NCBI GenBank assembly: GCA_030272155.1
Contig: CP126198.1
Location: 2,728,001-2,792,000, forward strand
From: Tetradesmus obliquus
Taxonomy: Eukaryota; Chlorophyta; Chlorophyceae; Sphaeropleales; Scenedesmaceae
Length of the DNA stretch: 64,000 nt
Direction: 5' to 3'
Under the pieces are notes generated by a model, which saw only the letters and a program-made list of their open reading frames with translations, was not told the origin of the DNA and ran no database searches. This document shows, in pieces, positions 1-30,089 of the stretch. The position numbers and the translations under genes were made by a program. The first letter of the stretch is position 1, and the number at the start of each line of letters is the position of its first letter.

Positions 1-297
1 GCAGGTGGTGCAGACTGATGAGTGTGTGGCGGAGATCCACGCCAATGCAGTGACTGATTCTTGAGTCCGTGCCTTGCTACTTGTCTTGTGCTTGTCATGC
101 CTGCAGGTGGTGCAGACGATGAGTGCGTGGCGGAGATCCACGCCAATGCAGTGACTGATTCTTGAGTCCGTGCCTTGCTGCTTGTCTTGTGCTTGTCATG
201 CCTGCAGGTGGTGCAGACTGATGAGCGCGTGGCGGAGATCCACGCCAACGCCGAGATGTTTGACCGCAAGGCGGAGCTGTCCTTCAAGTACCTGCAG
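1..297 (+). repeat. Three tandem copies of an intron-end/exon-start junction
   Basis: Units begin at 1, 103 and 204 (periods 102 and 101 bases). Each holds the last part of an intron, ending CTGCAG, and the first 45 or so bases of the next exon (GTGGTGCAGAC...). Only the third copy runs into the full exon at 208-297. Copy 1 reads in frame into a TGA. Copy 2 has lost one base and is frameshifted. The first two are therefore decayed junction copies inside the upstream intron. The same architecture occurs at 17288 and 25193 in other genes. Confidence 0.85.
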
Positions 298-2194
298 GTG
301 CGCTGGGCACAACACATCATGGTTAGCCTAGCTCTGGGGTGTCAGTGGCAGTCTGCTGTTGTGCCACTGGAGCATACATACCTTGCCTTCAGCCTGCGCA
401 CAACAAAATTGCTGTGCGAATTTGGGTTACACATGCGCGTGTTGCACCCTGCCAGCAGCCTGCACCATATTGCCCGAGCCCGAGCAGCAGCAACACACCT
501 ACAGATCTGAGAGCCGCCCGCCCGCCGATTGTCCCCGCAGGTGTGCACCGCCTGCGCCAACGCCTTTGCGCATGGATCCAATGAAGTGGCCAATGCAGTG
601 GGCCCGCTGGCAGCCATCTACCAGGTGTGGCAGACGGGGCAGATCACATCCAAGGCGCCGATTCCCACCTGGCTGCTCGCAATCGGAGGCTTGGGCATCT
701 GCGCCGGCCTGGCCACATGTGAGTGCCTGGTGTCTGGGTGTCAAGTAGACGAAAGTCAAGCTCATGTGCATCGCTGTGCTTTGCTGCGGGTCAGCAATGA
801 CTACTCATGACCTGCAAGTGCGGCAGCCACCTGAACAGCAGTGCCTGCTGTGCTGAGTGCTGCTGTGCATGCAGTTTGATAGTCCTGCATGAATTACGCA
901 TGCCAAGCGCACCATGGTCGTGGTGATCTTGACTTTGTATTGTCTGCTGCTGCAGTCGGCTACACTGTCATGCGGGCAATGGGCGTGAAGATGACCCGCC
1001 TCACCAACTCGCGCGGTGAGCACACACAACTGCTTTATCCACGCCTTTCAAGTGCTGAAGCTGGTGCTTGTGTGACTTGCGTCAACGCGCTCGTGTGCAA
1101 TGTGCACACAGATGGGGCACACGGGCACCTGCTACTTGTGCTGAGCAAGTGGGGTGTTATGATTCCACAACCAGCCGTGCATCACATACCAAACCACCTG
1201 CACTTGCCATTGGCTCAATGTGTTTACGCTCTGCCTGCCGCTGCAGGATTCTGTGTTGAGCTGTGCGTGGCAGCAGTCGTCATCGTGGCCTCCTACTGCA
1301 ACCTGCCCATGTCGTGAGTTACCACGCTGGCGTCAGCAGCAGCAGCAGAATCGCCATTTTAGCGCTGAGCTCGGCCTGTGGCTGTGTGGAACAGCAACCA
1401 TCAGCAGACGTATCGCAGCGGCCGCCAGACGACAGGCTGGGCCGGCTTGCGCGCATGCACACCAGCAGCACCGCCTGCCTGGCTTGGCATGCTTCATCCT
1501 CCAGAGCTCCCCCAGTCGCAGCAACCAGTCTTGTAAGCAACCGCTCATCCTCCATCCGGGTGTTGTTATGTCTGTGTGCATGGCTGTGTGTGTTCCTTGT
1601 AGGTCCACGCTGGCCACTGTGGGCGCCATTGCTGGTGTGGGCGTGTGGGAGGGCCGCTCCGGCTTCAACGCGCTGCTGTTCGCCAAGATGGTGGCGGGCT
1701 GGGTGCTGACCATGATCGCAGCAGTCTCGCTGACATGTGAGCATGAGGCCTGAACATGTAGTTCCGAGCCGTGCTTTTTGCACAGCAAGCAGCTGCGGTG
1801 TGCGTGACTTGCTCACCATCCTCGCCGCTATCATCGCTGATGTGTGAGCAGCAGCAGCATGCGCCATCCATTAGCCGCACACATGTCATTGACAGCAACA
1901 ATGCACAGCCATCTCGCGTTGCTTGCTTGGTCATTCTTTGGACCTGCGGTGGTCTGGTCAGTTGCATTTGCGCCAATAACTGGCGCAAATAGGGTTGTGA
2001 GTATGTGCACATGCCAGCAGCACCACATTTGCTGGCGCCTGCCGTGTTCCCAGCACCTCTGCTGACCTGCATTGGCACTACTAGCCCACCGGCAGCCGCG
2101 CTCTTCCTGACCATACTGTGTGGCTGCTGCTGCTGCTGCTGCTGCAGGCCTGTTCATGGCTCAGGGCCTGTACGCTCCCAGCAGGGGCTGGTGA
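208..2194 (+). CDS. PiT/PHO4-family phosphate transporter, C-terminal part
   Basis: This is the 3' half of an inorganic phosphate transporter of the PiT (PHO4) family, a membrane symporter driven by Na+ or H+; in green algae these are the PTB-type carriers. Exons are 208-297, 541-718, 956-1015, 1247-1313, 1603-1736 and 2148-2194; phases match and they give 191 residues plus stop. The family signature is clear: an [20 protein letters not shown] block, then a [20 protein letters not shown] block, then membrane helices around [17 protein letters not shown] and a short tail ending [10 protein letters not shown]. The 5' exons lie left of the window. The final GT at 2191 could also be a donor, but the stop falls where family members usually end. 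The first visible exon is preceded by decayed copies of its own start. Family assignment is firm; the transported cation is not shown. Confidence 0.93.
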
Positions 2195-5100
2195 GAGGCG
2201 CTTGCTGCTGCTGTCCTGCTGTGCTGCTGTGTACACATTACCATGGCTATAGCTGGCCAGTTGCTAGCTGCATGCGTGCATGTCTGTTGATGATCTGCTG
2301 CAAGGAGGAGGTTTTGATGAGACGCGCACATCCTCATGGCAGCAGCAGGTGGTGCTGGCATACATGTGCTTGCAGCTAGCTGCTGAATCGCCATGCCTGC
2401 GCAGCACAGGTTGACAGGGTATCTCTGCTGTGCATTGCCTAAACATCTTCGCTGCTGCCACTGGCTGTTCTGCTGTATGCAGCCCCCTGCCTGGCTTCTA
2501 GACCATCACCCACCGCCTCACAACACCTCCAAGACTACCACACGCCATCGCAGGGATGGTTCTTTGTTTAGGACATGTGTGGCGGCGTTTGTGTTGAAAA
2601 TTAGTACTGCTTGCTCGCAATAGGGGGCGGTGCTCGGCCCAGCCGTTTGTGACATGTTATATGATGCCCTAGCCTCAGCCTATGTTATGTTGTTTCCTGG
2701 CCTCCGTATGATACTGGCAGATACGACCCCGGCTACTTTGGCTGCAACACAAACCTGCTAATCCCTAGAGCTGCAGCGACCGTGCAGCTTGGGGTGATGC
2801 GTATTGCGTTCAGCTGGGAAGGCAGTGGAGATGATGGGATGAGGCTTGCTGCATTTGGCACAGAGGCTCAGCAGAGTGGAGTCGCTACAGGTAAGGACAG
2901 CAGCAGCAGCTGCTGCAAGTGCATGAATACAACCACCTGCATGAATTTTATGTGTCGCAGCATGTTGCTGCCGAGTGTTTGATCCCCGTAGCTGCCAGTT
3001 GCGGCCCTGGCTCAGTAAAACCCTGATCCAAAAGTCCCTAGCGCTGCAGTGGCTTTGCAGCTTGGATGTTGCATTCAGCTGGGAAATGCAGCAGAGTGAG
3101 CGTGGGAGTGTGCAAAGAGCGACAGCAACAGCAATTGCATGGATCCAACTTAAGCACATTTAACTGTCTGGTTGTGATGTTGGCTCTAGTGGCTGAGCTC
3201 AAAAACCCAACCTGGTTGATGCGCGAGTTTTAGTCACCACACAGCTCGCAACTGCTCAGCTGCCACTAAACCTGGTTCATTTGCATAATGGCAGAGGCCC
3301 GATCAATGGGAGCTCCAGCTGCTTGCATGCTGTTGGTGTGTCTGATGACAAGCTCTGCTAATAATGACCCTTAGGTATTGCACGTGCTGGGCACATCTGC
3401 ACATACAACCAACTTTGTGCTGGCAGGGTGGGTGTGAGTGTTCAACACTGTGTTCAGTGTTCAACACTTGAGTTGGCAACTCAATGTTTGCCAGCTGTTG
3501 GTTGCTTGCAGAGGTGGCAGAATAGATTAGCCGGCAGCCGATCGCCTTGTTGAGCTGCTGCGCCTGCAGCGTTGCTGTGCATTTCACGCATTTGTCACTC
3601 GTTGTTTCTTCCCCCGCACGACAGCTGTCCGCAGTGAGCAGCGGTCAGGTCTTTTCCTTTATTGATGTTGTTGTTGTGCCATAGCAGTTAGTGCTGTGTG
3701 TGGCGCACTGTCAACGGTGAAACCGGGTGTGCTGCATATGCCGCGCGCATTCTGGCGGGGTGGGTGCGGCTTGATTGCTTTGTGAAGTTGGACAGTCTAG
3801 CATGAACAATGTAAAGCTGCGCACCTTCAATCATTGCTTTGTGCTGAGCGCTGGATGTGGCGTTGCAAAGCTGGCACAGGGCTCCATGGCACGATGGTGA
3901 TGTGGAGCCGTCATCAGTTGGCCCACTGGGGGTCGACTTTCGGCACGACCTTTGGTAGCACTTGGGGTGCGGGTCATGGCACCATGCACGTTGCTCCTTT
4001 GGCTCATGAGCCATTCACTAGCTCCTCAGACGGCGAGGCCACTCTTGTCGAAGTGCCCCAGTTATGACAGTGCCTATTCTACGCCTGTGATACATAGCTA
4101 TGTGACTTTAGTACCATCACCACATCGTGTCTGATCAAGGAAGGCAGCAATCAAGATATCACGTATGGACCTGCATATTGATAAGGATAGGAAAACCAAT
4201 CTCTCAACATCTTCAAGATGAAGTTCTGCAGGTCAGCATACACGTTAACGCTGTAACGTTACAGCCATCCAGCTCCACCGCTGATGGTGCCTGCGCCAGG
4301 AGCAGCGACCGCTTCGCCGTGGGTGCACACAGACGCACACACATTTATCCCAGTCAACTGCAACTCTTGTTACACTGTTGTCCCAGTCACAGATATACCG
4401 TTCGCCTGCTTGCATACATCCGGCTACAATCACTCTGTTGACACACACTCGCAACTCTGCTGTTGGTGGCTGGCCACTTGACGTTACAATGCCGCGCGCT
4501 GCAACACTGTTGCTGGCAGCTACAGAGCTTCGCAGCACATGCAGTGGCGACCTATATCCAGGCGACCGCCCATATCCAGCCAACCAAAAACACGCGTACC
4601 AGCCCACACCCACTCAGCACAGTGTAAATTGCCTCATGAGTTATGAGTCATAACCAGCTCATTCCGCACCAACACACCTTGCTGTGCTGCATTCCTGTGC
4701 TAGCATATATTTGTCCAAACACTTCGTAAACGCGAGCGCAAGATACACCCGCATTTCCGTGGCTGGACTTGCTGGTCAATCCTGGCAAGCAGCTCCTGTG
4801 CTGTGCTGACGGCTGAGACCAGGAAAGCTGCCATGCACAGCATCAGCACACGCCAACAACGCAGCTACAGCCACAAATGACTGAATAAAAAAAAACAATA
4901 CTCACAGCTTGGTAAAAGGCCACGACAAGCCACAAGCTTCCACAGCCTGCTGCATGGTGTGTGTGCCAATCTGTGCAACATCTATCGCAAGCACACCACC
5001 ACATGCATCACACTGTTGCACATGATATCAGCGACAGAGCGGTGATGCCATGTGGATCCTGGTATGCCTCAAGCGGTATCTAAATACCTGGTGTGTCCCT

Positions 5101-5605
5101 GGGGCATTTTACATTACAACGCTGGTGCGCTGCGCAGCAGACCCGTATATGTACAGCACAAAGCGACAGAGTTCGAACAACCCATGTGCATCACCACCAG
5201 CAATACAAGAAGCCACAGTCGCACATTTACAGCAGCCTGGCAGCTGCTGCACGACTGCTGTTAAGACACCTCCTGCTTCACGCACAACGACCTTGCTCAG
5301 CCCTGTGCCACATGATGGTGGCGGCGCCACGCTTACGCTGCATGATGTTGTTGTACACACCGGGCTGTGCACCAAGCGCTGGATTGGCAAGGGTTGGCAC
5401 AGCGCAAGGGCACGGCAGGAAAGGCAAATCAGCTGTTGCGCTGTCGCAACATGCTGCTGCCGCTGTTGTTGCGCATGGCGCTGCAGCGCAGCAGCAGCAC
5501 TCGCTACTGCAGCACAGGACGGTGATGGTTACCCCATGACGTGCTGTGTCACACCTGCTGCTGTACAGGAAGGTGGTGGTTTCACATGCTGCCTCTCCCG
5601 CTGCC
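2195..5605. other. Gap between two convergent genes
   Basis: No gene recognised. It should hold the 3' regions of the phosphate transporter (+) and thiamine pyrophosphokinase (-). TTACA, which is TGTAA on the minus strand, occurs at 5109-5113 and again at 5114-5118, about 490 bases past the kinase stop, and is a candidate poly(A) signal. A perfect 16-base palindrome GCTGTAACGTTACAGC at 4250-4265 carries TGTAA on both strands. The repeated word GTGTTCAACACT near 3438-3470 and a 10-base A run near 4880 are minor features. Confidence 0.5.
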
Positions 5606-8600
5606 TCACGCGCTGCTGGGCAGGATGGTGTCGCCCACGGCGGTGATCCACAGCAGGTCCTCATCTGTTGAGACCTCTATGGAGTCCGAGGAGATGATGT
5701 TGGAGGTGGACAGCAGCCCGCGGAAGCACATCTGCAGCAGCACAGGCAGCCGGCAAACAGCATTCAGGCAAGCGACGCGTAGGCAAGATGGAGACGTCAC
5801 GGTGACAGACTTCAACAAGAGCAGTGTGTAGTGCAGGAGCTGAGCAAACGCAACACCTGCAAGGTTACAGCTACAGCAACATGCCGACATTGCAACCCCA
5901 TTGCTGCAAGAGCAGCCATGCCCATTCATATGAACACACGCACAAGCACGCTGCCTATCTTGAGTGAACAGTCAAACTGCCACAACAGGCATGAACGTGC
6001 ATGCAAACGGTTTTGCACAAGTCAGCAACCGTCATACGTGCGCAGTGCGGCACGCAGAACCCACGCACTCAGCCAAACCCATATGTGCGCTTGCACAAAG
6101 TGATAAGCGCATCTGCTTTTGATGTCAAGCGCACAAGCCAATCTGTCATTACACCCGCGCATCAGCACCAAACACACGGGCGGCCAAGCTACGTGCATTT
6201 GTACATTCAACGGCACGCACACCATCACATGCATGCACCAAGCACGCAATCGCTGAGTTAAACATGCACGCAGGCGCATGCACACATGCATTAACAAATG
6301 TGTCTCGAGCGTCATGCGCCCAAGCTGAGATATCAGACGCGTGCTAAAAGACATGTGCACGCTTGGTCAGACATTAGTGGACGCTTGTGCATCCAATGCC
6401 ACACATATATCCTCAGCTATTATGCACACCGCGCGAATGCAGTTATGGCGCGCGCAGGCAAACAAATGCACGCAAGTGCAGACTACTTGACGGGGCATGC
6501 ACCAATGTCATCCACACAAGCCAACGGACAACATGCGCATGTGAGCATGCAGGGTGAGCGTGCGCAGACAATTCGTGACACATACACCGATAGCACTAAA
6601 TGCGCAAGCGATATCACACACAAGCCAGCAACCATCACGCACGGCCCACGCATGCATGCAGCGCCAGAACGGATACTACACGCACGCGTGCATACAGGAA
6701 TGGACACTCGAGCATTGTGGCAAGCGCACAATCCAACAACCACACCACGCCCATCCTAACACGCCTGCAACTTGCATGTATGCACATATGCTTCACACGC
6801 GCCCACGCAGTCGGGAACGAAAGGGCGCGCATCTGCTGCCATGCCCACAAGCCAACCGCATTCAAATCAGCAACACGTGCATGCACTCGAAGTGCGCGTG
6901 CATTTACACAGGCAAAAACATGCTTGCGCTTGGCCATGCACGCATGTATGTGCGCCGTCACGCGCATGAGGCACGATCACACCACGCACACGCATGCAAT
7001 GACGTGCGGTTGCAGACAACACAGCACATGCAGAAGCACATGTATGCACGTGCATCAAATGTCATGTGCACACGCTAGCCACAACCGCACACACAATGCA
7101 GGCAAAACAACAAGGTGCGAGCATATGCAGACAACATTGAATGTGCGAACAGAAAGGCATGCACGCGCACGCAACCTACGTCAGGCGCACAAGCCAAGTT
7201 TCATTACGCATGCGCGTGTCAACAAGAGGCGCATGTGCGGGTGTACAAAGGCAATACCACGCGCGAAGACATGCATGAACGTGCGTGCATCTGAACCGCG
7301 TGCATCTGACAACATTGCATACCATTGCCGTGCCTAAAATATTGCTGTACTTTGCGGGTTATCGACAACAATACCATTTCGCAACAGCGAACATGGCAAG
7401 AGCCGGTGACTGACGTACCATTCTTCTGCAACTAGAGGCATGCAAGTTGAGTGAAGTCGTTCTGTGTTGTTATGTGTGGGCGTGGCGCAGGTGTGCAGCA
7501 AGAGCAGCCTGTGCTGCACATGTGGGCCGTGGATCTCGCTTTATGGCCGTGCTGCTGTGTTGTTGCGGCTTCTACTGCCTTTGCCCTCAGGCAGGCAGTA
7601 GTGCTGTGCTGTACATCACGCTATTTGCAGCCTGACAACAAATGCACATGCAAATTCTGCGATTGTGAAGGTGCTGGCATATACATGCTGTACCTACTGC
7701 TGCTGCTGGTGGTGCTGCTACTGCGTCCACGCCTGCTGCCGATGCATCGTTTAGTTTGCAAATTAACTCAATTGAAGTCTGATCGAATAACAGATTGAAC
7801 ATTCGACATTATTACAGCCCTCGCACTGAAACATCCCAGGTGTGCATTATGCAGAACGAGATTCTGACAATCACTGCCTGCCTGGACATCGCCCTGCCGG
7901 CGTGAATAGACTTGAAATTAATCAAGTAAAAAAATATAAAATTACATAGTTCGAGGCAACTACAAGGCACTCAACAGCAGGTAGCCTTTAGCATGACGAT
8001 TACATTGGATCGGTGCCTGAGGGCGTGCATGCATGCACGCCCCGATGCACAATCACAGGTGCCTAATGCATGCTTTGTGTATTGAACTTGCTTCTGCCTC
8101 TCTCGATCGCCGTGCACGGGTCGAGATCCACCGCACAGAGATGCCGGCCCGTCTGGGCGTGCCTTGCTGCACGCCTTGCTGCACGCCTTGCTGCAAGACC
8201 CGACAAGTGCAATGGCTAAGAGCTCTCAGCCATAAATGCACAGACATCAACCGCCATAGGCACAACCAAACATGCCATTACTTGCACGAGACAAAGGCAC
8301 ACGAAAGGCGCGCACATGCACAAACATGACCACACATGCGAGATCGCGAGCGTAGTCTGAGGCATGTACATGTTCATATGCCAAACGCCTTACACGCGCA
8401 ACGGAGGCACGCACGCATGCAAAGCGCGTGAACGCACGAAACACGCACGCGTGTGCAGACTGGCAAGAACGCGCATGCATCCACTGGTCTGCGAACAAGC
8501 CAACCACCATCACCCATGCACCGCACAGCCGTCAGAATGTATGCAAATACAGAACCACGCGCGGCCGGGTGGATCCACGCTTGAACGCGCGTGCGCCCAA

Positions 8601-11600
8601 TCGCCAAATGCGCGCATACAGACAGCCATGGACGCGTTTGTCCCAGTGTCATACACACAAGCCCAATGTCGCTGCGCGTGCACCACACACATGCATGCAA
8701 CACGTGTATGCTGGTAGAGCTAAATGCGCGCGCGGACAGGCATGCCGGGCGTGCACCGAACATCATACACACAAGCCAATCTTTGCTGCCAGTGCACCAC
8801 ACATATGTAGGGATGTGAAAACCGTAGGTCTGCCAGCTGACCTACGGCCGTAACTCCGTAAACCTACACCGTAACGCCGTAATCGTAGGCGTAGGTAAGG
8901 GGGTATACTTTTCTGGGAGACTAGCTGCTGCTTATTCGTACAGTGAACATGTTGCCTGATGTGACAATAGTTAAGTTGTGGAATTTTGAAGGGATCCTGA
9001 TGCCATGTTCTTGTGTGAAACAACGAGTTCCCACCATCAACATCTGGCCCACCCGGCAAAACCTACTGCATACCTTGTGCATACCTGCAAACAAAGGCAC
9101 AACAATAGCTCTACAACACCCAACACACACTCTTGGCGACGCAGCAACAAAGCACTATGTGGGGTGCGTGATGAACTGCTGAACGACTTGACAGACTGCT
9201 ACACTTGGTGACATTGTTACGCCATCGGCACCTTTACGGTAATGGCAAAAAGCTACACAGCAGCTGCGCCACCAGTGTTGGCTTATTGCAACAGCACAGC
9301 TGCTGCACTTGTGCACTTTGACTACTGTATTGCTGTAGCCAGATGTATCGGTGGGGGTGTACAGCCTCAAACCAGCGCAACGTGGCGCTACAAAGCACAG
9401 CATAATAACCTCCAGCGGCGCGAGCATCGCAGGCCTTTGTCAAGCTGAACTTCGAGGTGAGCGCGGCCAGAACCGGAATGGCATTTTGCTCGCTGCGAGC
9501 AGCTCGCAGTCGATACAGCGCTGAAAAGCTTATTGACAAAATATTTTAAAATCATTCTGACACTCATACGGCTCTAAATTCGGAAAAGCAGCAGTTCTGT
9601 GCTTCAGCCTACGGACAAGTGCCGTAGGTACCCCCATAGGTCACCCCGTAGGCGCCCCTACGGCTGTTACGGCCCAATTTCTGACCTACGGCGTAGCCTA
9701 CGCCGTAGAAACCTACGCCGTAGGACCTACGGTTACGGAATTCACATCCCTACACATATGTGTGCAAACGCACGTGTGCTGAAAAGCCAAATGCGTGTGC
9801 GCAGACATGCATGGTCGCGCGCGCAGCCAACGTCATACCCGCAACTCAGTCGCTATCGCGCGCGCGCCACACGCATGCACGCAAAGCCGGGTGTGCTGAT
9901 GCAATGCGCCCACGCGCATGAACAGACCTGAATAGACACGCGCTGCAAGCACGCATGCATACAAGGCGCGTGTAAGTACACGTACACAGATGCGCACATG
10001 CTGACAGATGCATGCATCCAATGCCACACACCAATCTCGCATGCATGCAGCGCAGGCACAAGCCCAATGCCCGCACGTGCTGAGGCAAACCCACACGCAC
10101 ATGTGCACACCGTGTGGAGCGCACGCGCAGCCGTCGACGTCATCATACGCCCACGCCCACGGCGGTAGCAAGCACGCAACAAGGCAGGCCCGCACAAATG
10201 ATGCAACTGACCCAAGTGCGCACACATGCATTGGTGCGCATGCTTTCCGCGTCACAAGCACAAGCCAGCAGTGACAATGCACGCACCACGTGCACACATG
10301 TAGGGCGCGCATGCACACAAACAAGCACACGCGCACGAGTGCAGCCATGCTAAACCGCATGCATCCAACGTCATGTGAATAAGCCGCTTCGTCGGCGACC
10401 GCCATCACGCATGCACTGCACCTACATATATCAACGCACAAACCCGGCCGCGCGTAGACAGAAATGAACGTGTGCATCCATTGCCATGCATACAGGGCAA
10501 AAGCCATCCCACGCGCAACACACGCATGTGTTGGCCTGCACACAGATATGCATGAGCATACATGCATGAATGCGCGCTCATCTGATAACATGCAAACCAG
10601 TCAGTCGCCATCACATTCGCACCACGACAGCGCATACTAGGGACGCGTAAGCATACACGTGCGCATGCAAGGCCCATGCATGTACATACCCGCGTGAGCA
10701 GCCGCGCATGAATGCGTGCAATGGCAATGTCATGCACTCAGGTCGATCGCAATCACAAGCGCGCCAAAAGCGTGCAAGCAAGGTGCGCATACGCATATGC
10801 CCACGCCCGCGCGTAAGCAGGCAGGCATGTCAGCGCATTAGACAATCTTATACAGAAACGCCAACATGAATCACGCGCAAGCAACACATGGACAAACTCG
10901 GCGCGCCTACACGATATATTATGCGCAGATTGAAGACGGGCATGTAACACGTGTGCATCCGCGTCTACCCACACTGAGGCACGCAAATACATAAGGCACG
11001 CACACTAAAACATCAAACTACGCGTGCGTGCACACATGCCTGAGTGCATTGAATGTTACGAGCACCAGCGAGCAATGACAATGAGCGCACAACGTGCACG
11101 CATGCAAGGCGCGCGTATGTATCCGGGGTCATGCAATAGGCCAACGATCTTCACACACGCAGCAAAGCGCGCATGCAAGGAGCCCTATTGGTCAAAAGTT
11201 GTACCTAACATGCGTGACGTTGCATTGGCACAAACGCACATTATCAGAGCATGCAGTGGCCTCTGCTGTTCACAATACCTAACTTGCTCAGCCGGTATAC
11301 TAAGGCTTCGAAGGTGCTAAGGAGCCACTAAGGGGCACCTAACCCTAGCATGCGCATCAGCTGGCCTTAGCAGGCCTAGCTGGGCTGGCCAGGGTTAGCA
11401 AAGTTCACTAGCCCACTACTAGGCCTAGCTGGCGGGTTAGCTGGCCTTAGCTGGCCCTAGTAGGGCCCAAATACCCTTTTCAAGGTAACCTGGGCCTAGT
11501 AGGGTGACACGTTTGCTAGTAGAGAGCGCATACGGAACAAACGACAACACACGCGCATGCAGACCAGAACGCAAGCCCGATAAAAATGTCACGGACACAA

Positions 11601-13639: not shown

Positions 13640-13679
<40 letters not shown>

Positions 13680-14837: not shown

Positions 14838-15867
14838 GCCAGCCCCTGCTGGAAGGCTGCGGCGTGCAACCTGGGCTGACAGGGAGGGGGCGTCCAAGCG
14901 CCCAGCCCACGCTGCACGCCGAATGGTGACGGTTTGACCTGCAGGAATCAGGAAGAGCAGCAGTCGCAAGAAGTTCAGCAGAGGCATAGATTGAGCAAGG
15001 GTGAGGTCTGCATAGCAGGTGTGCAGGCACTTGCCATGCTCAATGGTTGTGGTAAGAGCAAAGTCAGCAGGCTGCTGCTGCTGCTGCTCCTGTTCAGGAC
15101 GCTACTGAGCTGCTGCTAGCTCAGCGGCGCTTGTGTTTCGGTTTGATGTGATTTTCAAGCACAATCATCATGGGACAGAGGACGGGCCCTACCTTGCAAA
15201 ACTGCTGCTGTAAGACACTGGCTTGCTCGCAGGACACTGAGCATCGGCAAGGTGTCCACAGCTTGAGGAGTTCAGAGATCAGAGCTCTTTACTATACCAG
15301 TGCTAATGCAGTTAAGCTGCTAGCAGCTCAGGCGCGCACGACAGCAACCATAGCTCAGCTGTGGCTCGGCTTTCAGCGCGCGTAGTATTGTGCCTGTAGG
15401 TTGAAACATCAAACAGCAAGTTTGTCAACCATGGCCGCTCAGCCAGGAAATGGCGCTCAGTGCAACTGTCAGAACCCTGGTGCTGCATGTGATGAGTGTC
15501 TCGTGTCCTTGCAACGTGATGCCTTTTGATCGCTACGTTCATGCGGTTAGGCTATTGAATGTCATGCTTACATCACATGAAAAGAAACCACATCAACTTC
15601 ACCCGACACAACCGAACGGTGCATCCTCTGCTCCTGGCCTTTGTGATCTGTCCTGTCGTGCTTGCTATAGCGCTCGGAAGCATCACAAGAACCTTGAAAG
15701 TTACCATCAAGGTTTTCTGGAAGTAGCCTGACTTCCTTGTGCGCCCCTGCTGAGCGGCCAAGCTTTACCAGCAGCAGTAGCATAGCACAGTCTCTGCTTA
15801 CTGCTGCCTGCTTGGGCACAGCAGGCCCTTCCTGCGGTTGCTGATCAGCTGATCGACAGCGTAGAAG
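14838..15867. other. Divergent intergenic region between TPK and PSMB2
   Basis: Separates two head-to-head genes and should hold both promoters. It includes a possible in-frame N-terminal extension of TPK up to the ATG at 14987 and short CTG runs near 15070-15115. I recognise no further gene or clear core promoter element. Confidence 0.4.
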
Positions 15868-16523
15868 ATGGACTTCTTCATGGGCATAAAGGGCAAGGAC
15901 TTTGTCCTTGTCTGCGCAGACACCTCTGCAGTGCACTCCATCATCAGCATCAAGCAGGACGAAGACAAGATCATTCCTGTCGACACACACAAGGTCTTCT
16001 GCATAGCAGGAGAAGCAGGAGACCGCGTGCAGTTCTCCGAGTACATCATCGCAAACATCAAGCTGTACTCGCTGAGAAATGAAACTGGCTTAAGCACAAA
16101 GTCGGTGGCACACTATACGCGTGGGGAGCTTGCCACAGCTCTGAGGAAGGTATGTTGTTAGCAGGATAAGGATGCAACAGCAGCTGTAGGGCGCACACGC
16201 AGCAGCAGCATCTATCTGTGAAGCAATTGCTACCTATGTATGTTGAGTTGCAGATTGGGCCTGCGCAGCATCACTGCAGCCACCTGGGCTGGTGGCAATG
16301 GCTGCAGTGCGCAGAGTTTAACAATTACAAGAGATCGCAGTCATTTGTGGGGCGTGTGCATGAACAGCCTATGCATTCACTGCAGAATCATGTGTACATG
16401 CACGCGGCAGCCGGTTGCAGTTCAACTTGCCTGTCATTGCTCTTGGCCGCATTGCATGGCCACCTTCGTCCCATGCCGCTGTATCAGCCATGCGATGTGC
16501 AACCCGCTGTTGCCAAGCTTGAC

Positions 16524-16558
<35 letters not shown>

Positions 16559-17578
16559 TGCTGCGAATGTCACATCATTGCTTGCATGCATCCTGCAGTC
16601 GCCGTACCACTGCAACCTGCTGGTGGCTGGCTTTGACGAAGGCGTGGGCCCCTCGCTGTACTGGCTGGACTACCTAGCCACGCTGCACAAGGTCAACACG
16701 GGCGGCACAGGATACGGTGCGCCGCCACTATAACCATTACTGTCAGCAACCAGTAGCTGTGTGGGTGTGCTATAGCAGAAGAAAGTGCAGGACAATTTGT
16801 GATGCCAGGAGCAGCTGGGCCTTCTGCAGCAAATTGTGCGCTCTGCACAGCAGGCATGCGATTTGAGTCGAGAGCTGCCAGGGCTGGGTGCTGCCAGGTT
16901 CTGGTTTTGTTCCTCATTTCCTAGCAGCATGCAGTGTCGTTGTGATGGTTTTGACAGCTGCAGTTGGTGGGCTGCACTGCTCTGCATGGCGGCGAGGGGT
17001 TTTAGGCACAGCATACCACAAGCTTTGTGTTCAGCACACACTGCACGCATTCCATGTGCTTGTTAGCCGACAAAAAAACCACTCCCAGCAATTAGGCGGC
17101 TAGCGCAACAAGCAGTTAGGCGGCTAGCGCAGCAGCCACAGCTAATAAACAGTTGGTGCTTCTGTAAGCATGCCCAGTGTACACTTACTGTACATGTACC
17201 GTGCTTCACCACCCACACAGCTGCGCAGTACTCGCACCTCACGTGCACCTTGCGTTCTGCTTGCTGCTGGCTTTGCTCCACCTGCAGGCTCCTATTCTGC
17301 GCTGTCGCTGTTTGCCAAGATGTGGCGCCCTGACCTCACCCCGCGCTTCCGGCTTGCCTGCTTTGCTGTCTGCTGCTGACTCTGTTGCGCTTTCAGGATC
17401 ATACTTTGCGCTGTCGCTGTTTGACAAGATGTGGCACCCGGACCTCAGCGAGGACGAGGCCGTGGCCATGATGGAGGCGGGCATTGCAGAGATCAAGAAG
17501 CGGCTGGTGGTGGCGCCGCCGCATTACATCATCAAGGTGGTGGACAAGAACGGCGTGCGGGAGGTCAAGAAGGTGTGA
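15868..17578 (+). CDS. PSMB2: 20S proteasome subunit beta type-2 (PBD/PSMB2)
   Basis: Structural, non-catalytic beta4 subunit of the 20S proteasome core. Exons 15868-16149, 16599-16716 and 17397-17578 join in phase to 193 residues, near the usual 200. It starts directly with MDFFMGIKGKDFVLVCADTS, without a propeptide, as expected for this subunit, and lacks the N-terminal catalytic Thr. Diagnostic blocks are SAVHSIISIKQDEDKI, GEAGDRVQFSEYI, YTRGELATALRK, VAGFDEGVGPSLYWLDYLATL and SLFDKMWHPDLSEDEAVAMM. A TGTAA poly(A) signal follows at 17752. A decayed copy of the start of exon 3 sits 109 bases upstream of it. Identification is secure. Confidence 0.96.
17288..17340 (+). pseudogene. Decayed duplicate of the start of PSMB2 exon 3
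   Basis: After CTGCAG the sequence reads GSYSALSLFAKMWRPDLT, a near copy of GSYFALSLFDKMWHPDLS at the start of the true exon (17397). The copy keeps an acceptor and the right phase, but the similarity stops after about 53 bases and no GT donor follows. It looks like a non-functional junction duplication inside intron 2 rather than an alternative exon. Confidence 0.8.
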
Positions 17579-17751
17579 GGCAGGCCAGGAAAGTGTGAGG
17601 GAGGCCAAGGAGGTGTGGGGTTGCAGCAGTAGCTCGCACGAGTGCTGCTTCAGCAGCAAGCGTGCTGGGACGCATACGGGGGGGGGGGGGGGGGTGCTGA
17701 AAAGCATGGCAGCCTGGCAAAGTGGTTGATGCAGGGTTCATCCTGCTCTTT

Positions 17752-17756
17752 TGTAA
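17752..17756 (+). terminator. TGTAA polyadenylation signal of PSMB2
   Basis: TGTAA, the usual chlorophyte poly(A) signal, occurs 174 bases after the stop codon. A run of about 16 G lies between stop and signal, near 17680-17695. Confidence 0.6.
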
Positions 17757-19972
17757 ATTATCAATTGGACTGGCGTGAGCAAGGGGCGTGCAAGAGTGGC
17801 GCAGCATCTTGACGTATAGAAGCAGTTGTTGCGTGCCACACCGTGCCACGATGGCTGTTGCGGATACATATATCCCATGCTGCAGCTGGAGAAGCAACGT
17901 GTACTTGCAGTGGTATAACAGGCTCGCCCAATCAACCTTGGAAGTCACCATCTACGGCGGATGAGGTCATGGTCAGGATCATGGAACACGTTGCTTCAAG
18001 TTCAGCAGGGCACCACGCCCTTTCTTAGCTGCCACGAGACATTACTAATGTCTGCTAGTAGCAGGCCAGTCCACCGGAGCAGTTGTAACTAGTCAGCCAC
18101 ACCGCCGCTTTTGTGGCAGCATGCGGAACAGCAACAGAACAAGGCTGCTTCCATGCAGGTACCAAAGAGGAGCGCTGAGCGCCCGTTGTCTGGATAAGGA
18201 CGACACAATTGTAGATTAGACAGCTATGCCAGGAAAACTTGCAGGACAGCAGTCAGCGATGGGTACCAGGCTCTACCTGGCAAGCAGGCATACATGCAAC
18301 TCCCCACCTACAAATGCGACGCAGTTGTAGCACTGCTGCTTCTCCTGCTTCTTTGCGAGGAAAATATTTTCGCTGCACGTCTTTCCTGGAGGTGACCACT
18401 GAGGATGTCAATGACAACGCGTCACCAGGGCTACCTCAGAAATTACAAAAGAGCAGGAGACAGGCAGTGCCCGTTCCTCCTAGTCATCGTGGCCGCTGCG
18501 GGAACAGCACTGACAAGCTGTCGATGTGCTTGGAGGTAATACTAGAGCAAGTAACAGGAGGAGCAGCACATCTGTACATCTGAGTATGCCAGCAGCCATG
18601 GTGGCGAGGGGGCCTCCCTTCTAGATGTGAATAAGCATGGCGGGCACGGAGGAAATAAAAATACCTGAGTGCCAGTTTCCATCAAACAATCAACCGCTTT
18701 CGTTAGCGGGGCACATTATTCCGGCCGGGTAAAGGATCTCACCGCTTTGACACAGGTCCCAAGCCCTGCAGCAACACAACCCATAAAAGTGCCGGCACCA
18801 TGCAATGATCATGATGATGATGAAGGACGCATTTAAATCACTTAGTTATGTTGCATTGATGCCATTTCAGCATGTAATGTGTGCAAAATGTAATGTGTGC
18901 AACTCATTGTACTGCATGCCAGCAAAGCGCCCACCTGGGGATTTATTCACACACAACCTAGATGCTTTGAAATCCAGGAGCCGTAGCGGATTGCCAGCAT
19001 ACACTATAGCCTGCTTGCATGCACTGCATGCATTCAGCAGTCGCTGTTCAGTGTCAGCATCCAACTGCAATCATGCTGTCAACAAATTCTTGATACCCAA
19101 TGCATCAGCACCTAGCAATTGGTGGTCACACGGTGTTGCTGAAGCTCACAGCGACTAGGAAGAGATATCCAGGGCTGTTCAATAGTGTTTAGTCAATACG
19201 CAATACTTAGGGTACTTGATACTCAGTGCGTGATACGCAATACGCAGGTTGGAGCGTATTTATATGTGCCTAAATACACGCCAGTACGTGTTGTGCTGTA
19301 GTGAGCCCACAACAGCGCCAACACTATGTTGCGGTACAGCGGCAGTACAGCTATCAGCCTGCAGGCCTAGGATGTTCTTGATGTTTGCATCACCTGACAC
19401 ACAGCACTCCTGCCGGTGGAAGCGGCAAGGTGTCACATTAGACACAACTGCATCATGGCCCACGGGCCCAAGCGCGTGCACACTGACAACACGCAGCGCA
19501 CGCAACAACTGCTGGCGACTGACACAGTGCACATCTCCTGCAGCAACATAGTGTAGCAGCAAGTCTTGGATCAACCAAAAGCGGTATTGCATCTGCTGAG
19601 CAATTATTGTTTGGGTTCCTGTGCTAACTGCTGCCGTGGATGGAGACGTGATGGAGCACATTTGACACATTGCTGGCCAGCATCCATGGATGACCTCCAC
19701 GCAGCAGTGGCAGCAGTGGCAGCAAAAGCGCTCAGAGAAGCCACCCTGACTTTGCATTACTACTTTAGCTGACTGATCTAACTATTCAGCAGCTTCTGTA
19801 ATGGCTGATACGCTGTGTGCGCGATGCTGTGAGCCGTCATTTGTCATTCGAAAGGGGTGGCGACTACAAATAGCACATGTCACAGGTCTGAAAGCGAGAC
19901 TGTAGCCATGTATACTCATGGGTTCTGATTGTACCAATGCATTGTTTTTGCCATCCTGTTTATACTTTTAAA

Positions 19973-20400
19973 GAGTAGGTACAAACATGTACTCCAAGGT
20001 ACACACTGTGTACTCCTGGCAGGAGTACGCAGCAGTACAACAGTACATGGTACAAGCATGGCGGCATGGACAGCAGGGCCTCGGGTACAAGCTACGCATG
20101 GTGTGCAGGCGTGTGTACTCGCGTGTATGCGATGCAGTGTACCCAGGCAAGAGCCTTGAGTACGCATGGATACAAAGTACAGCTGCTGTTGATTTCTCGC
20201 CACCAATGTGAGTACAAAGGAATTGCTTGCGTAGAGCTTTGAGTTGTTGCCAGGGTTGGTATGCTGTTGTTCCCAACGGCAGGTGTTTCTGCCGAGCCAA
20301 ACGAGTACACAAAGCTACAGTCCTGCTTTCACACCCATTGCATGTACTCATTGTACAATGAGTCTACATGTAGACTACAATTATTTAGTCACCACCCCCC
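19973..20400. repeat. GTAC-rich interspersed repeat, copy 1
   Basis: Starts GAGTAGGTACA.AC.TGTACTC.AAGGTAC, carries a TTTCTGCCGAGCCA word and ends GTCACCACCCCCC. The same start, internal word and end recur in the same order at about 21530-21980. The interior is dense in GTACTC/GAGTAC and GTACAA words. No coding capacity was recognised. Probably a non-autonomous DNA element. Confidence 0.6.
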
Positions 20401-20611
20401 AGTCATTTGGGAACAGGGATTTAGCCAATACGCCAAACTTCTTCCTGAATAAGGCGTATATTTGGCGTAGTTTGCCTCTTATTGCACATTTGTCATATTC
20501 TTGTTTTTTGATACATGGTTCGCTGCCTAAAAGGGCGTGTTAAGCATCCCTGGAGGTATCCACATCCTTGCTGGCAGTGATGTCCACATCCTTGCTGGCA
20601 GCAGCGCGCCC

Positions 20612-20708
20612 ATGACACCCATCGACTTCAAAACCCGCGCTGTTTCTGCACTGCTGTCATCCTCCTGCACCGCCCGCAGCGGCAGCGGCAGCTCTGCCTC
20701 TGTCACAG
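20612..20708 (+). CDS. Possible orphan 5' coding exon
   Basis: An ATG at 20612 opens MTPIDFKTRAVSALLSSS followed by a Ser/Arg/Ala-rich stretch, ending at a plausible GTACGC donor after 20708 (97 bases, phase 1). The composition resembles a plastid transit peptide, and it lies upstream of and on the same strand as the plastid-protein exons that start at 22748. That exon begins in phase 0, so at least one further exon would be needed. This is only a candidate. Confidence 0.25.
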
Positions 20709-21240
20709 GTACGCCCTGCAGGTGCTGGCATGAGGGGCGAGCCTTTTTTTGTTGTTGTTACATGAGGGGCGAGCCTCCTGGATGTTGCGCTGTGCTTGCC
20801 ACACATTGACCCCGGCTTTGACGCCGGTGCCCAGACTGACCCGCAGACGGCAAGCCAGACAGCCGCGGCAGAAAGACGCCGCCAGGCGCCTGAGACCAAA
20901 GGCAAGGCAGACTGTTGGTAATGGGCCATTACTCTAACACACAGAAACGTTCTACACCTAAGCAAGTGTATCATTACCCATGTTTCGCAATCTACAACCA
21001 CAAGTCCGTACAACAAACAGGTTGGACGATGATGAGATGTTCTTCGATGTTTCCTCCCCCCCTTTGAGCCTCTCGTTGGCTCCTGACTGGGGTTCCCACT
21101 CCTCGTTGAGTGGAGCATGTAATGTAATGTAATGTAAACAGGCGCGCCTGTTTTTTTGTCAAACAGACGGGTAGAATTTGTGACAAAGAACCCAAATGTG
21201 TCACACCGGGAAGCACTGGCCAATTGGGGGCGGATTACAA

Positions 21241-21391
21241 ACCACCGTACGGGGGGAGGGGGGTGTCAGGGGAACGCGTGGTTTTTAGCCCCCATACCCC
21301 CTAAAGGAAAAGTGGCTTCTGCATGGGCGGTGGCTGCCGCATGGTTGGGCTCGACACCATACCCCCTCCCTCGAAAGTGCCCCCCCCCCCT
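21241..21391. repeat. G-run/C-run interspersed element, copy 1
   Basis: A G-rich left part (from about 21250) is followed by GCGTGGTTTTTAGCCCCC, a core reading AAGTGGCTTCTGCATGGGC and GGTTGGG, then AAGTGCCCCCCCCCC. The same order of words occurs at 51856-52069, about 30 kb away, with longer G and C tracts. No frame resembles a protein. Confidence 0.65.
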
Positions 21392-21990
21392 ATACAAAGG
21401 GGGTGGTGACTACACTTAGGTACGGTAACCAGTGTGGTAGCGGGCATGTACCCCTGTGTACCTAAGGGATCTGCTGGCACCAATATACTATATTTACTAT
21501 GCCCATTCTAATTCCAATTGGAATTGCAATGAGTAGGTACACACGTGTACTCTAAGGTACGCAGAGGTACAAAGTACAGGCCTGGCGGCCAGTGCAGGTC
21601 AACTTGAGGTACAAAGTGCACCTGCTGTGTACTTTGGTGTACCTAAGTGTACTTCAGTGTGAACGAAACCCTCAGAAACCCTAAACCCTTGAGCGCCAAA
21701 GTACGTGTTTGGGGTACACTCGGTGTACCTAAGCCACAGCCTTGAGTGCAAAAAGGTACAAAGTACAGCCATTATGCGATGTACAGCACTGGAGGAGGTA
21801 CAAAGTACAGGTCGAAAAGGCCGAAATTTCCAGGGGTACCGAATTTTGGTGTACCCAAGGTGGTTTTGGTGTGGGTGGCGTGTGCCAATTCTTTCTGCCG
21901 AGCCAGATCCCTTAAGTACACAGAGGTACATGCCTGCTACCACACTGGTTACAGTACTTAGGCGTAGTCACCACCCCCTTCCTATACAGT
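21391..21990. repeat. Inverted-repeat element, GTAC-rich family copy 2
   Basis: Arms of about 85-90 bases at 21391-21480 and 21897-21988 are inverted copies with only scattered mismatches. Both read GGGGGTGGTGACTAC, then GTAACCAGTGTGGTAGC, then GGCATGTACC, TGTGTAC and TAAGGGATCT inward. Between them lie GTACAAAGTACAG words and the same start and internal words as the copy at 19973. The structure is that of a small fold-back or terminal-inverted-repeat transposon. No clear target duplication was found. Confidence 0.7.
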
Positions 21991-22747
21991 AGTTTGTGGT
22001 TCGCTTCATGCTGCTGTCATCTGCTACGCATTGACTCGGACCACAACATGGAATGTATGTTTGTCAAGGTTTTGCTAGAACGTGGAGGTAGAAGCTTGCA
22101 GATCAACCACTGGTCCAGGTTGGACCTGGTGCCAGGCACCTGGCAAAGTCAAAACAGAAGGTCAAATGTAACGCCCTGCAGCAGTCGCACACTGAGCTGA
22201 AGATCTGCATCTGAGATCAATCACGAACGCTCACATCAGAGGCTTATGCTTGATAAGGCGATCCAAAGTTGTCGTTGAAGGCCTCGATCGCGCTGCTTCC
22301 ACGTACTGTACTTGCACACGAAGGACAACAACGAACGCTGATCGAACAGTTATATTTGATGCATCGTTGTTATTGACGTGCTTCTCTGATCTAGAACAAC
22401 TGGGCAACAAGCAGGCACTGGCCAGTCCGATCCACACTGTCTTTCACAAGCCAGACGTGGTTGTCAGAGCTTGAGGTCGTTTCAGATAGCTTTTTAGTAC
22501 ATTAGGGCAGGCGCTGTGCAGCATGCTGCTCCATGCGCGCACCTGCCAACTCTGGCAAACACCGCTGCGGCCTGGGGAACGCGTTTGCTCCAATAGTAGC
22601 GTGTTAAGTAGGCATCGGCGATTGAGGCAGCCTTTAGAGCGTCTGCAGCGCGCCATTGCCGCGCAGGTGCGCATGACACCATCTTGAGTGCAACAACAGC
22701 AGTTGGGTGGTGGTTCCTCTGGTTGGCTCACGCATGCCATTCTGCAG

Positions 22748-25700
22748 GTCTATGCCGTCCCAGATGCTGCATCAACCAGCCAGCAGACGACGCAGGAGCA
22801 TCAAAGCAGCGACAGCAATGGCAGCAGCTCCCACAGCATGCTGGGGCAAGCCAGCAACGCGAGCCTGCTGCGCCGCGTCGTTGGCACCAGCACAGCAGCC
22901 GAGGCATTGGACTTGCTCATTCAGCAACTTGACCGACAGCAGCGGCCACATGCCATATCAGCTGATGATGCTGAGTTGCTGCTTGAGCGAGCGCTGGAGG
23001 CGGGAAATGCAGGCCTAGCGCTGTCAGTGTATCAGCAGCTGTGTGCAGCCAAGCGTGCACAGGGCCGTAGCAGCCTTGCAACCCCCGCAACTGTGTGGCC
23101 TGCTGCAGCGCTGCAGCACACGCAGGCGCTGGTGATGGGGCTTTGCAGGCAGCTGCGCGTGAATGACGCGCTGGCAACAATGCGCAGCATACGCAGTCAG
23201 GGCATGCCTGGTGCTGACGAGGTGCGTTCACAGCGGTTGTACAAGCATGGGTGTGGCCTCTGGAGTTGATGACAGGTGCTGCATGTTGTGGTGCTGCAGC
23301 GCTGCAGCAGCAGAGGATGCAACAGCAGGCATAGCATGCATGCAGCCTTGGAGTTGACTGCGGCCAGTTGTAATTGCATTTTGTCTACAGCAGCTGTCTA
23401 TCAACGGCCCATGCCGCGGTAGCCTCGGCGTCTTGCAGGGCTGCACATGTTGCGGTAATCAGCTGGATGTGGGCGGCAAGCAAGGTGGGGGACCTGGCGA
23501 CCTGGCAACCAGCATGGGCAACATGTGCAGGATCTTTGCAGCAAAGCAGTTGTTGCTGTGTGCCAGCAGCTCAGCCCGCTCAATGCACCAGCAACTGGAA
23601 CTGTGCATGAAAGTGAAGTATCATTGGTGCAATTGACTGCACCTGTTCCAACATCTTGTTTTTGTCCCCTGTCTGCCTTGCACACCCTTTTTCTGTGCTC
23701 GTGTTCCGCGCCGCACAGGTGTCATTCGGGCAGGTGGTCAGCTCCCCGCTGCCGCCGCAGCGGCCGCTGGCAGTGGTGCAGCCGCAGGAGGGCTGCAAGG
23801 TCGTCTCTGACTCCAACTCCCGCTTTGAGTTTGAGCTCTTCTCCGGCAGCGTCACCAGCTGCAGCTCGGAAGCCCTGCAGTTATCTGACAACCCGCTGCT
23901 CGCGGCAGCACGCTTGCTAGGGGTCTGGCGGCGGCTGCCGGTCTCTGCAGTGCATGAAATGGTCGTCATGGCGCCAGACGGCACCAGCCGCACATTCCGC
24001 ATAGGCACGGCTACAGCAGACGTGCCTGCGCAGCTGGGGGAGCGAGTGACAGTCGTCTGCGCCCCTAACAAGGGCCGCAACAAGCTGAAGCGGCTCGTTC
24101 TCAGCACCAGTCCTCCAGGGACGCAGCCGGGGCAGCCAATGCTGATCTGCAACCACAAGACAGGTATTGAACTCACGCTGCTGCGGCCGCCGCTGCCAGG
24201 GAGTCAGTCTACTGTGCCAGGCTGGCTGCTGCCGGCTGCTGTGCTGCTAGCCGGCGGCGATGCAGCATCTGGGCTGTTGGATCCCGCCCTGCCGCTGCTG
24301 ATCGGTGGAGGGCTGGCGGTTACTGTTGGCAGCGCTGTGGCAGGCAACTCGCTGCTGCTGCCACGGCTGAAGCAGCTGCCGGGCAACGCAGTGAAGCTGG
24401 ACGGTATCAGGCAGCAGCTGCTGGCGCAGCATGCAGGGCTGGACAGCAAGGTGAAGGCCACAATGCAGGTGCGCCCGGGGATGGGCAGCCTGTGTCGCAG
24501 AGGTGCATGCTGTCGCAGATAGGGCATGCATCAGCCGATGGTGAGGAAGTGAGTGAGACTGCGACAAGTGTGCCCACACCTCTTGACAGCCAGCTCTGTG
24601 TGCATTGCACCTGCTGCTGCTGCTGCTGCTGCTGTAGGAGGCTGCCGAGGACGTGCGCACGCTGGCGCGCCTGTGCCAGCTGCAAGTCAAGATGCAGTCT
24701 GTGGATGCGGGGTCAGGCGCAGCAGGCTCAGCGTATGAGGCTCGCATTGGGCGTGTGGTGGCTGTTGCACGCAGCATTGAGGAGCGGCTGAGCAAGCGGC
24801 TGGAGCTGCTGGATGGCTATGCGCGCGTGATGAACATGATTGAGATAGAGGTTGAGATGGACATGCAGGTGCGTGGCTGCTGACACATCTCTGGATCAGG
24901 GTGGATCGGCAACTAGAGACAGCTGGTGGCTGTGCAGTGCGATGCAGCAGCTGGTTGAGATGGACATGCAGATGCTGGCTGCTGTATTGTTATAGGGGCA
25001 GAACAGGTGGTTGTGTTGTTCGGTGCAATAACAGCTTGCAGGAAGGGTCCATGTCTCCTTGTGACCGCTGTCTGCGCTGGCAGGACTCCTTATTGCAGCT
25101 GCAGATGTACTCCAAAGTGCATCTGCGTCAGGTGCATGCGCAGACCCTGTGGAATCTGCCTTCTGCTGCCTGCTCTGTTTAGAACTCACCAGGTGCCATT
25201 GCTGAGCTGGAGGCTACTTGCCTGGGCGCGTAGGCCTGATATTTGCTGCAACTCTGTCTCCCTGCAACTCTGTTGCTGCCCCTTGATTCTGCTGCTGCTG
25301 CTGCTCTCTCAGGTGCCTACCTCTTAGCGGGAGACACTTGGCGCCTGCAACTATCGCGTGCTCACCCCCTTTCTGCTGCTCGGCTGCTCCTGCTGCTGTT
25401 CGTTCATACTGCTCAGGTGCCCTTCTTTGAGCTGGAGACGCTGGGGTGTGCATTGGTGCGTGCTGAACCTGACTTCTGGCTGCTCTGCTGCTGCTGCTGC
25501 TGCTGCTGCTTGCCAGGTGCCCATCGCTGAGCTGGAGACGCTGGGCGTGGAGCTGGGCAAGCTGAGCGAGCTGGAGTCCATCAAGGAGGAGTGGCAGCTG
25601 CAGGCGGAGGCGCAGGATGAGGTGGGCAGCGGGGCAGCTCACCCTGTTGGCAGTGTGATGACGATTGTTGCGCACAGCAGTGTACAAAAGCATCTGTTTC

Positions 25701-26318: not shown

Positions 26319-26383
<65 letters not shown>

Positions 26384-29128: not shown

Positions 29129-30044
29129 CTAAATACGGCTGCCGACTGAACGCACCATCTGCACCTCTTTCCGGCTCAGCCCACACTTCTCATAAAAAGG
29201 TATGTTGTGCTCTGCACAGTCCAGGATGACCTTGTAGCAGCCCTGCTGCCTGGCCACCCGCACCAGCTCATCAATCAGCCTGCACAGCAACAGCAGATGG
29301 CAGCACCCCTCTGTGGCTGTGGTGCATGCAAGGAGCTCAAGCAGCGCAGGCCACTCCCGCACTTTGCTCCCTGCCAAGCCTGCAAGAGAAAGCAGCAGCA
29401 CACAGGCAAACCCAACACCAGTATGCTCTGCTTGTCTCAGTGCAGCAGTGACCATCCAACACAGGGTGGCAGTGTCAACAAGTCTGCTGCCTGCTAGGGA
29501 CTATGTTGCACTGCTACTGCCCCGCTTTGACCATTTCACTCGCACTCACACCCACCCCACAGCACTTTCTGTTTGATCAGCAAAACAGTGCACAGCAGCA
29601 GCCCAAGTAGCACTCCCCGGAAACAGCTATTCATGACCGTGCTGTTGCCACCAACCTGTGCCCCAGGTTGTGTCCACGTGCCGCCTCATCCACTACAACG
29701 TCTTCTATGTGGCCCACCTGCACACTCACACGAAAACACATGAGCGGAGGAAGATGGACAGCACGTGCATGCTGAGTCAGCAGCATTTTGTGCTGCTGCC
29801 TGTTTGCAGGCTATCAGCATGCAGTGTGACTTTGACTTAAAAGCTAAATGGCACCCTGCTGCATGATGCAGCAAGTTACAGGGATCAGTGCACTTTATCA
29901 TGCCGCTGTTGTAGATGCATGTGTCAGGCAAGCAGTCTTCCTGTGCACACCTTGCCGCAGCTGTGGATGAACTTCCGCTCTATGATGAGAGCTGCTGTTC
30001 CCAGCAGCTGACTCTTGGAAGTGTCTGCAAGAGCAGCAGCAGCA

Positions 30045-30089
<45 letters not shown>

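Follow-up and report, generated by a model that had tools for sequence, protein, structure and literature searches.

Copies of exon edges in the introns of Tetradesmus obliquus, at donors as well as at acceptors

In the green alga Tetradesmus obliquus, 45 of the 222 introns that we sampled (about a fifth) carry at least one copy of the adjoining exon edge. The pattern came to light in a stretch of 64,000 nucleotides (nt) of assembly GCA_030272155.1 (contig CP126198.1, positions 2,728,001 to 2,792,000; this whole stretch is called the window below), where a first-pass annotation had noticed, in three unrelated genes, that the end of an intron and the start of the next exon were repeated in tandem upstream of the real exon. 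It had proposed a mechanism acting on acceptor regions. The three duplications are real. Copies are found at the start of introns as often as at their end, and are tied to neither donors nor acceptors alone. They have definite sites and sizes, are symmetrical about the intron, obey a reading-frame filter within exons, decay, and in places form arrays of several copies. We think it fairly probable that frequent short direct duplications, mostly of 80-165 base pairs (bp), arise in this genome and are filtered by selection on the encoded proteins.

Copies at both ends of introns

The genome has 104,662,953 bp in 17 contigs of 3 to 11 Mb, and the window lies on contig 8. Our main sample, of 264 kb, comprises the window, 10 kb on either side of it and 18 ten-kb pieces, one at 1.0 Mb on each of the 17 contigs and another at 3.0 Mb on contig 1. 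A second sample, of 57 kb, consists of 14 merged regions around proteasome-family matches. The sampling thus covers one genome, and about 0.3% of it. Introns were called by a self-trained hidden Markov gene finder, with 222 in the main sample and 58 in the proteasome regions, 280 together. Four settings of the finder were compared, two of which tied at six of the seven hand-called exons of GSH1 (to within 3 nt), and the stricter one was used; the finder is unsupervised and was tuned on GSH1, which itself bears duplications, so that it is not independent of that gene. Its exons contain 28 of the 36 proteasome matches obtained with hidden Markov models (HMMs). An exon edge was counted as copied when it matched its own intron with a score of at least 34, random other introns (three draws per intron) serving as the null.

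An upstream copy was present at 24 of the 222 acceptors of the main sample and a downstream copy at 30 of its 222 donors, with none in the null. When the proteasome regions are added, under a somewhat different filter, copies are seen at 29 acceptors and 37 donors of 280 introns (p 0.39), of which 22 acceptors and 26 donors belong to the 264 kb and 7 and 11 to the other 58 introns. Recurrence far above chance, suspected on the basis of three genes, is therefore a feature of the genome sample as a whole. The proposed specificity for acceptors did not survive: donors are copied at least as often, and the sample has no enrichment of acceptors over donors, an outcome that the first-pass annotation had itself named as telling against its idea. 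Introns with copies are longer, with a median of 467 (n=45) as against 291 (n=177) for those without.

A genome-wide search with six protein families, which returned 333 rows, gave a similar balance, with about 8 acceptor-type and 8-9 donor-type exons after grouping by hand, one of the donor-type being doubtful. These are lower bounds, as the proteasome-family rows gave neither type, yet the DNA comparison showed many there. Elsewhere, the family HMM matches appear as partial exons in stacks. In GSH1 (glutamate-cysteine ligase, PF04107), four donors have downstream copies (about five in one case), an upstream copy exists for one acceptor, and the stop codon is copied into the 3' flank, where the last coding segment is found again with its stop (L008 5410-5589). 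A last coding segment with its stop is likewise repeated after a proteasome gene (C15_704874 3778-4281; about 708,651-709,154 of C15). Outside the tally, a kinesin gene appears, by eye, to have six partial copies upstream of one exon (C2:7430665-7431657).

The features of the three loci of the window are these:

1..207, + strand: locus 1, two tandem decoy units, each joining a copy of the exon start to an intron end, with exon-like starts at 5 and 107 (Tandem Repeats Finder, repeat finder, upstream sequence)
208..297, + strand: locus 1, real exon of 90 nt, PHO4-family phosphate transporter (gene finder; PF01384, E 8.4e-61)
17257..17338, + strand: locus 2, decoy made of an intron end and an exon-like start at 17288 (80% identity over 82 nt to 17366-17447)
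17397..17578, + strand: locus 2, real last exon of PSMB2 (proteasome beta-2) including the stop codon (PF00227 match; start from the gene finder, end by eye)
24850..24882, + strand: locus 3, real exon end and donor, same intron as the decoys (33-nt match at 103 bp distance; donor-type event)
24953..24984, + strand: locus 3, copy of that exon end within the intron, its donor GT turned into AT (33-nt match; donor-type event)
25193..25240, + strand: locus 3, first decoy copy of the exon start, with an approximate end (read in the sequence; acceptor scored)
25310..25341, + strand: locus 3, decoy copy 2 with CAG (repeat finder)
25414..25445, + strand: locus 3, decoy copy 3 with CAG, 91% identical to the real start (repeat finder)
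25517..25621, + strand: locus 3, real exon of 105 nt (gene finder; sequence)

The exon boundaries of these loci match their own introns with scores of 120, 68 and 49, and the null never reached 34. At locus 1, units of 101-102 bp with 96% matches run across 1-248 (Tandem Repeats Finder and repeat finder), and the array extends upstream past the edge of the window, with further copies starting at L002:9700, 9801 and 9903. This makes five decoy copies and the real exon, and a possible older copy lies near L002:9617 (by eye only). In PSMB2 the decoy and real exon starts (17288 and 17397) are 109 bp apart. At locus 3, the starts of the decoys (25193, 25313 and 25417) and of the real exon (25517) are spaced by 120, 104 and 100 bp; its intron holds a donor-side copy too, so that even there the pattern is not confined to acceptors. 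The predicted proteins of the first two loci match the Pfam families PHO4 and Proteasome, which bears out their labels; the 236-residue part of the locus 3 protein that was searched (the first residue of the query being wrong) had no Pfam match, and the label 'plastid protein' is unconfirmed.

It had also been remarked that in all three loci the copy nearest the 3' end is the functional one. Geometry requires this, because in any duplication spanning an acceptor only that copy precedes the rest of the exon. The suggestion that the copies are a source of decoy splice sites fares better, since by score their sites look usable: both decoy acceptors of locus 1 within the window score equal to the real one, the PSMB2 decoy outscores its real acceptor (15.9 vs 10.8 bits), and so does one decoy of locus 3 (14.2 vs 0.9 bits). 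A 20-bp tandem repeat of 3.6 copies also spans the PSMB2 stop codon (window 17545-17617).

Size, reading frame and decay of the copies

Direct matches less than 400 bp apart strongly exceed those at 1-4 kb, which points to duplications that are direct, local and short. Offsets were scanned in place of using BLAST, which appeared to overlook matches less than about 70 bp apart; they peak at 100-130 bp and are sparse between 30 and 70. The distance is at most 175 bp in 54 of the 66 edge events (median 126.5), most duplications measuring 80-165 bp.

The lengths are telling in another way. In the twelve clusters lying wholly within exons, the smallest offsets are 12, 12, 21, 54, 58, 75, 96, 96, 102, 123, 240 and 240 bp, eleven of them multiples of three (58 is the exception); short repeats, of 12-21 bp, account for three of these clusters. 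At exon edges, only 16 of 66 units are multiples of three. This preference inside exons, its absence at edges, and the broken state of some decoys imply that copies persist where they do the protein no harm.

Decay itself is partial. Among 64 aligned decoys, from donors and acceptors of both samples, 16 have a frameshift gap, 4 an in-frame stop and 19 one or the other. The idea that upstream copies are truncated or frameshifted and yet keep their AG was thus right in its second half, and describes only a part of the copies in its first. All acceptor decoys but one (28 of 29) retain AG; in the 264-kb set it is kept in 22 of 23 against 19.0 expected from the other columns, an excess that alignment ends may favour. 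GT is intact in 27 of 37 donor decoys, and in the same 264-kb set its retention (21 of 26, 21.3 expected) is not above expectation. Where the core is intact, donor decoys score like real donors (medians 10.8 and 10.8 bits) and acceptor decoys are somewhat weaker (9.3 vs 11.0 bits, p 0.058). As a class, the copies do not combine, as whole exons do, an open frame, a length in frame and a splice site at either end; a minority may be whole-exon copies.

Origin of the duplications

If short duplications occur frequently and selection on the protein sorts them, one spanning an acceptor would leave a dead copy of the exon start upstream of the real exon, one spanning a donor would leave a dead copy of the exon end downstream, and one spanning a stop codon would place a copy in the 3' flank. 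Within an exon, only a duplication whose length is a multiple of three would survive. Surviving duplications could grow into arrays, and their dead copies would then decay. By analogy with other eukaryotes, the repair of staggered breaks is most likely what makes the duplications, the overhangs being filled in and the ends joined, sometimes with filler. Related work on small tandem duplications from staggered-break repair is said to be that of Vaughn and Bennetzen in 2014 and of Schiml et al. in 2016. As for contiguity, some arrays are contiguous and many have non-matching spacers.

Several observations weigh against duplication plus selection as a sufficient account. Edge-crossing events make up 58 of 83 (8 exon-only events being dropped from 91), and plain uniform placement predicts mostly intron-only ones: with 70-175 bp units placed at random in the same pieces, about 28% of the events that are not exon-only cross an exon edge, or 33% after correction for detection, so that the excess has a p of about 8e-12 when events are treated as independent, which those within an array are not. 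The youngest events show it too (12 of 16 at exon edges, p 7e-4), and among the four young 'intron-only' ones at least two are arrays reaching an exon. Then, the intron flanks do not follow the exons. Of the 27 events with an exon identity of 93% or more, 16 have a 40-nt intron flank at random similarity and 6 have one that is at least 80% alike; some of those 16 have weak homology left, or an indel shift. A more sensitive comparison recovered traces of homology in 11 of the 35 low-flank events and none in several with 98-100% identical exons. In another alignment of the events, three were left without an anchor. Finally, decoys differ from their exons most often at the third codon position (0.146, vs 0.060 and 0.054 at the others), above a simple neutral model.

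Neither the apparent edge preference nor the random flanks beside near-identical exons follow fully from duplication and selection alone. Age-dependent visibility was considered as a cause of the excess and set aside, as simulation gave only a 1.3-fold effect (0.198 vs 0.152), too small under the assumed rates. A count by windows gives another picture. Leaving out piece L019, a copy is found in 10.2% of boundary and 7.0% of intron windows at score 40, and in 2.1% of both at score 100; with L019 the figures, boundary vs intron, are 10.4% vs 10.2% and 2.4% vs 4.9%. We read the small or absent excess in this count as arrays filling introns, which is not proved. The excess is likely real and not proven, for the window count is smaller or nil and the exon calls of the finder could favour edges. 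L019 itself holds a long tandem array (1-3958 and 4086-6039) that repeats about every 274 bp, and a second match, at a spacing of 351 bp.

A process directed at exons or their edges is possible, if doubtful. Diverged homologues which pair only in exons might, for instance, exchange unequally or undergo template switching there. Such a process would be expected to join an exon block to an unrelated or much diverged intron flank, as in the random flanks beside blocks 93-100% identical. Where no flank homology is left beside exon parts 98-100% identical, the copies break off at the splice site or no more than a few bases from it, with 55-98 nt of unrelated spacer; in L021 and C11, exon block and spacer have since been repeated together. 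The edge excess by events, young ones included, agrees with such a process, as do differences rich in synonymous changes (144, against 115 nonsynonymous and 4 stop codons). Strong coding constraint on the decoys is not claimed here, as mutation bias could mimic it. Events also cluster strongly by region: the 84 kb around the window, with 80 introns, has 5 of them, and the GSH1 piece, with 11 introns, has 8 (chi-square p 8e-6; of the 19 pieces, the 17 with four introns or more entered the test). In addition, excerpts of PMC12571836 describe two 17-contig T. obliquus assemblies (GCA_030272155.1 and GCA_030272055.1), possibly two haplotypes. Against such a process stand arrays that reach four to seven copies, the frameshifts and stop codons of decoys, homologous flanks in some events, and the little or no edge excess in the window count. 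When 18 spacers were compared with the 321 kb sample, the only matches were, in some cases, to units of the same locus or nearby parts, and to short weak stretches elsewhere. It is possible, though rather doubtful, that a process in T. obliquus copies some 30-90 nt of exon up to the splice site, whether donor or acceptor, and places the copy inside the intron at a distance of about 100-150 bp. If an exon-edge-directed process is at work, a large share of introns would hold decoy splice sites in intact form, which the cell would have to disregard or remove.

Other explanations have less in their favour. Functional decoys, that is, alternative or poison exons for regulated splicing, would fit the strength of GT-keeping donor decoys and the near-constant AG; they are very improbable given that GT is lost in a good part of the donor decoys and kept no more than expected, that unit lengths are mostly not multiples of three, and that the copies decay. 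An assembly artefact, from untrimmed overlaps or haplotype switches in the consensus, might produce a characteristic size, an exon-anchored position and regional clustering, and we hold it to be very improbable: decoys have stops, frameshifts and lost splice sites, arrays have many copies, duplications within exons respect the frame, and the assembly consists of only 17 contigs, each megabases long. Judged from the decay and the arrays in the sequence, a fault of assembly is unlikely. The slippage at CTGCAG/CTG runs which the first-pass annotation had invoked for acceptors has in its favour that the three loci were all acceptors, with CTG-rich tracts near loci 2 and 3. We now give it hardly any credit. 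Donors are copied equally, and masked repeats of period 1-6 within 150 nt on the intron side accompany 3 of 24 copied and 45 of 198 other acceptors, 4 of 30 copied and 28 of 192 other donors, that is, no association, in a test that took such repeats as a class and not CTGCAG apart. This refutes the idea in the sample.

Related systems and consequences

Tandem exon duplication with mutually exclusive exons is a familiar case of tandem copies of coding exon sequence. T. obliquus also has tandem copies of coding exon sequence, which by contrast look mostly partial, have out-of-frame lengths and are in part decaying. For small tandem duplications, the proposed origin is in single-strand breaks lying close together on opposite strands, followed by fill-in and end joining (Schimmel et al., 2021; PMC8355091), and the copies in the alga are, like them, short, direct and local. 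However, that work in its introduction refers to insertions under 100 bp, with no link to exon edges in the excerpts at hand, whereas the units of the alga centre near 115-126 bp and sit mostly at exon edges. In Chlamydomonas and Volvox, according to excerpts of PMC3887541, tandem repeats in introns become denser toward exon junctions. These too are green algae with intron repeats near junctions; the units surveyed in them were of 1-50 bp, and those of T. obliquus are longer and include exon sequence. Intron gain by tandem genomic duplication (PMC4974935, in part) is again a within-gene tandem duplication touching intron structure, which makes a new intron, whereas in T. obliquus an existing one is lengthened. 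AG followed by GT is found at 10 of 24 copied acceptors against 42 of 198 others (p 0.039; 8 of 21 without the window loci, p 0.10). Recursive splicing through this AG-GT junction was considered, and the case for it is weak and not established. Among the matches listed, the open-licence PMC literature yielded no description of exon-edge copies in T. obliquus.

Should the share of about a fifth hold genome-wide, the alga would offer a natural experiment on how the spliceosome chooses, with many pairs of near-equal splice sites. If confirmed, the excess at exon edges would suggest a duplication process tied to gene structure. More practically, decoys would, at such a share, be a source of wrong exons in annotation. 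As a case in point, in an EFTUD2-like gene of the U5 small nuclear ribonucleoprotein (L021, minus strand, 1-5673), our finder called as exons what, by eye, look to be decoys of the P-loop exon, and so predicted three P-loops; public annotation may hold errors of this kind. CTG/CAG trinucleotide runs of about 10-26 copies are frequent, for example at 26320-26382 and 30032-30088 of the window. Just downstream of the window, in L003 3416-9497, a segment of about 110 nt that looks coding is repeated many times, in two versions that alternate.

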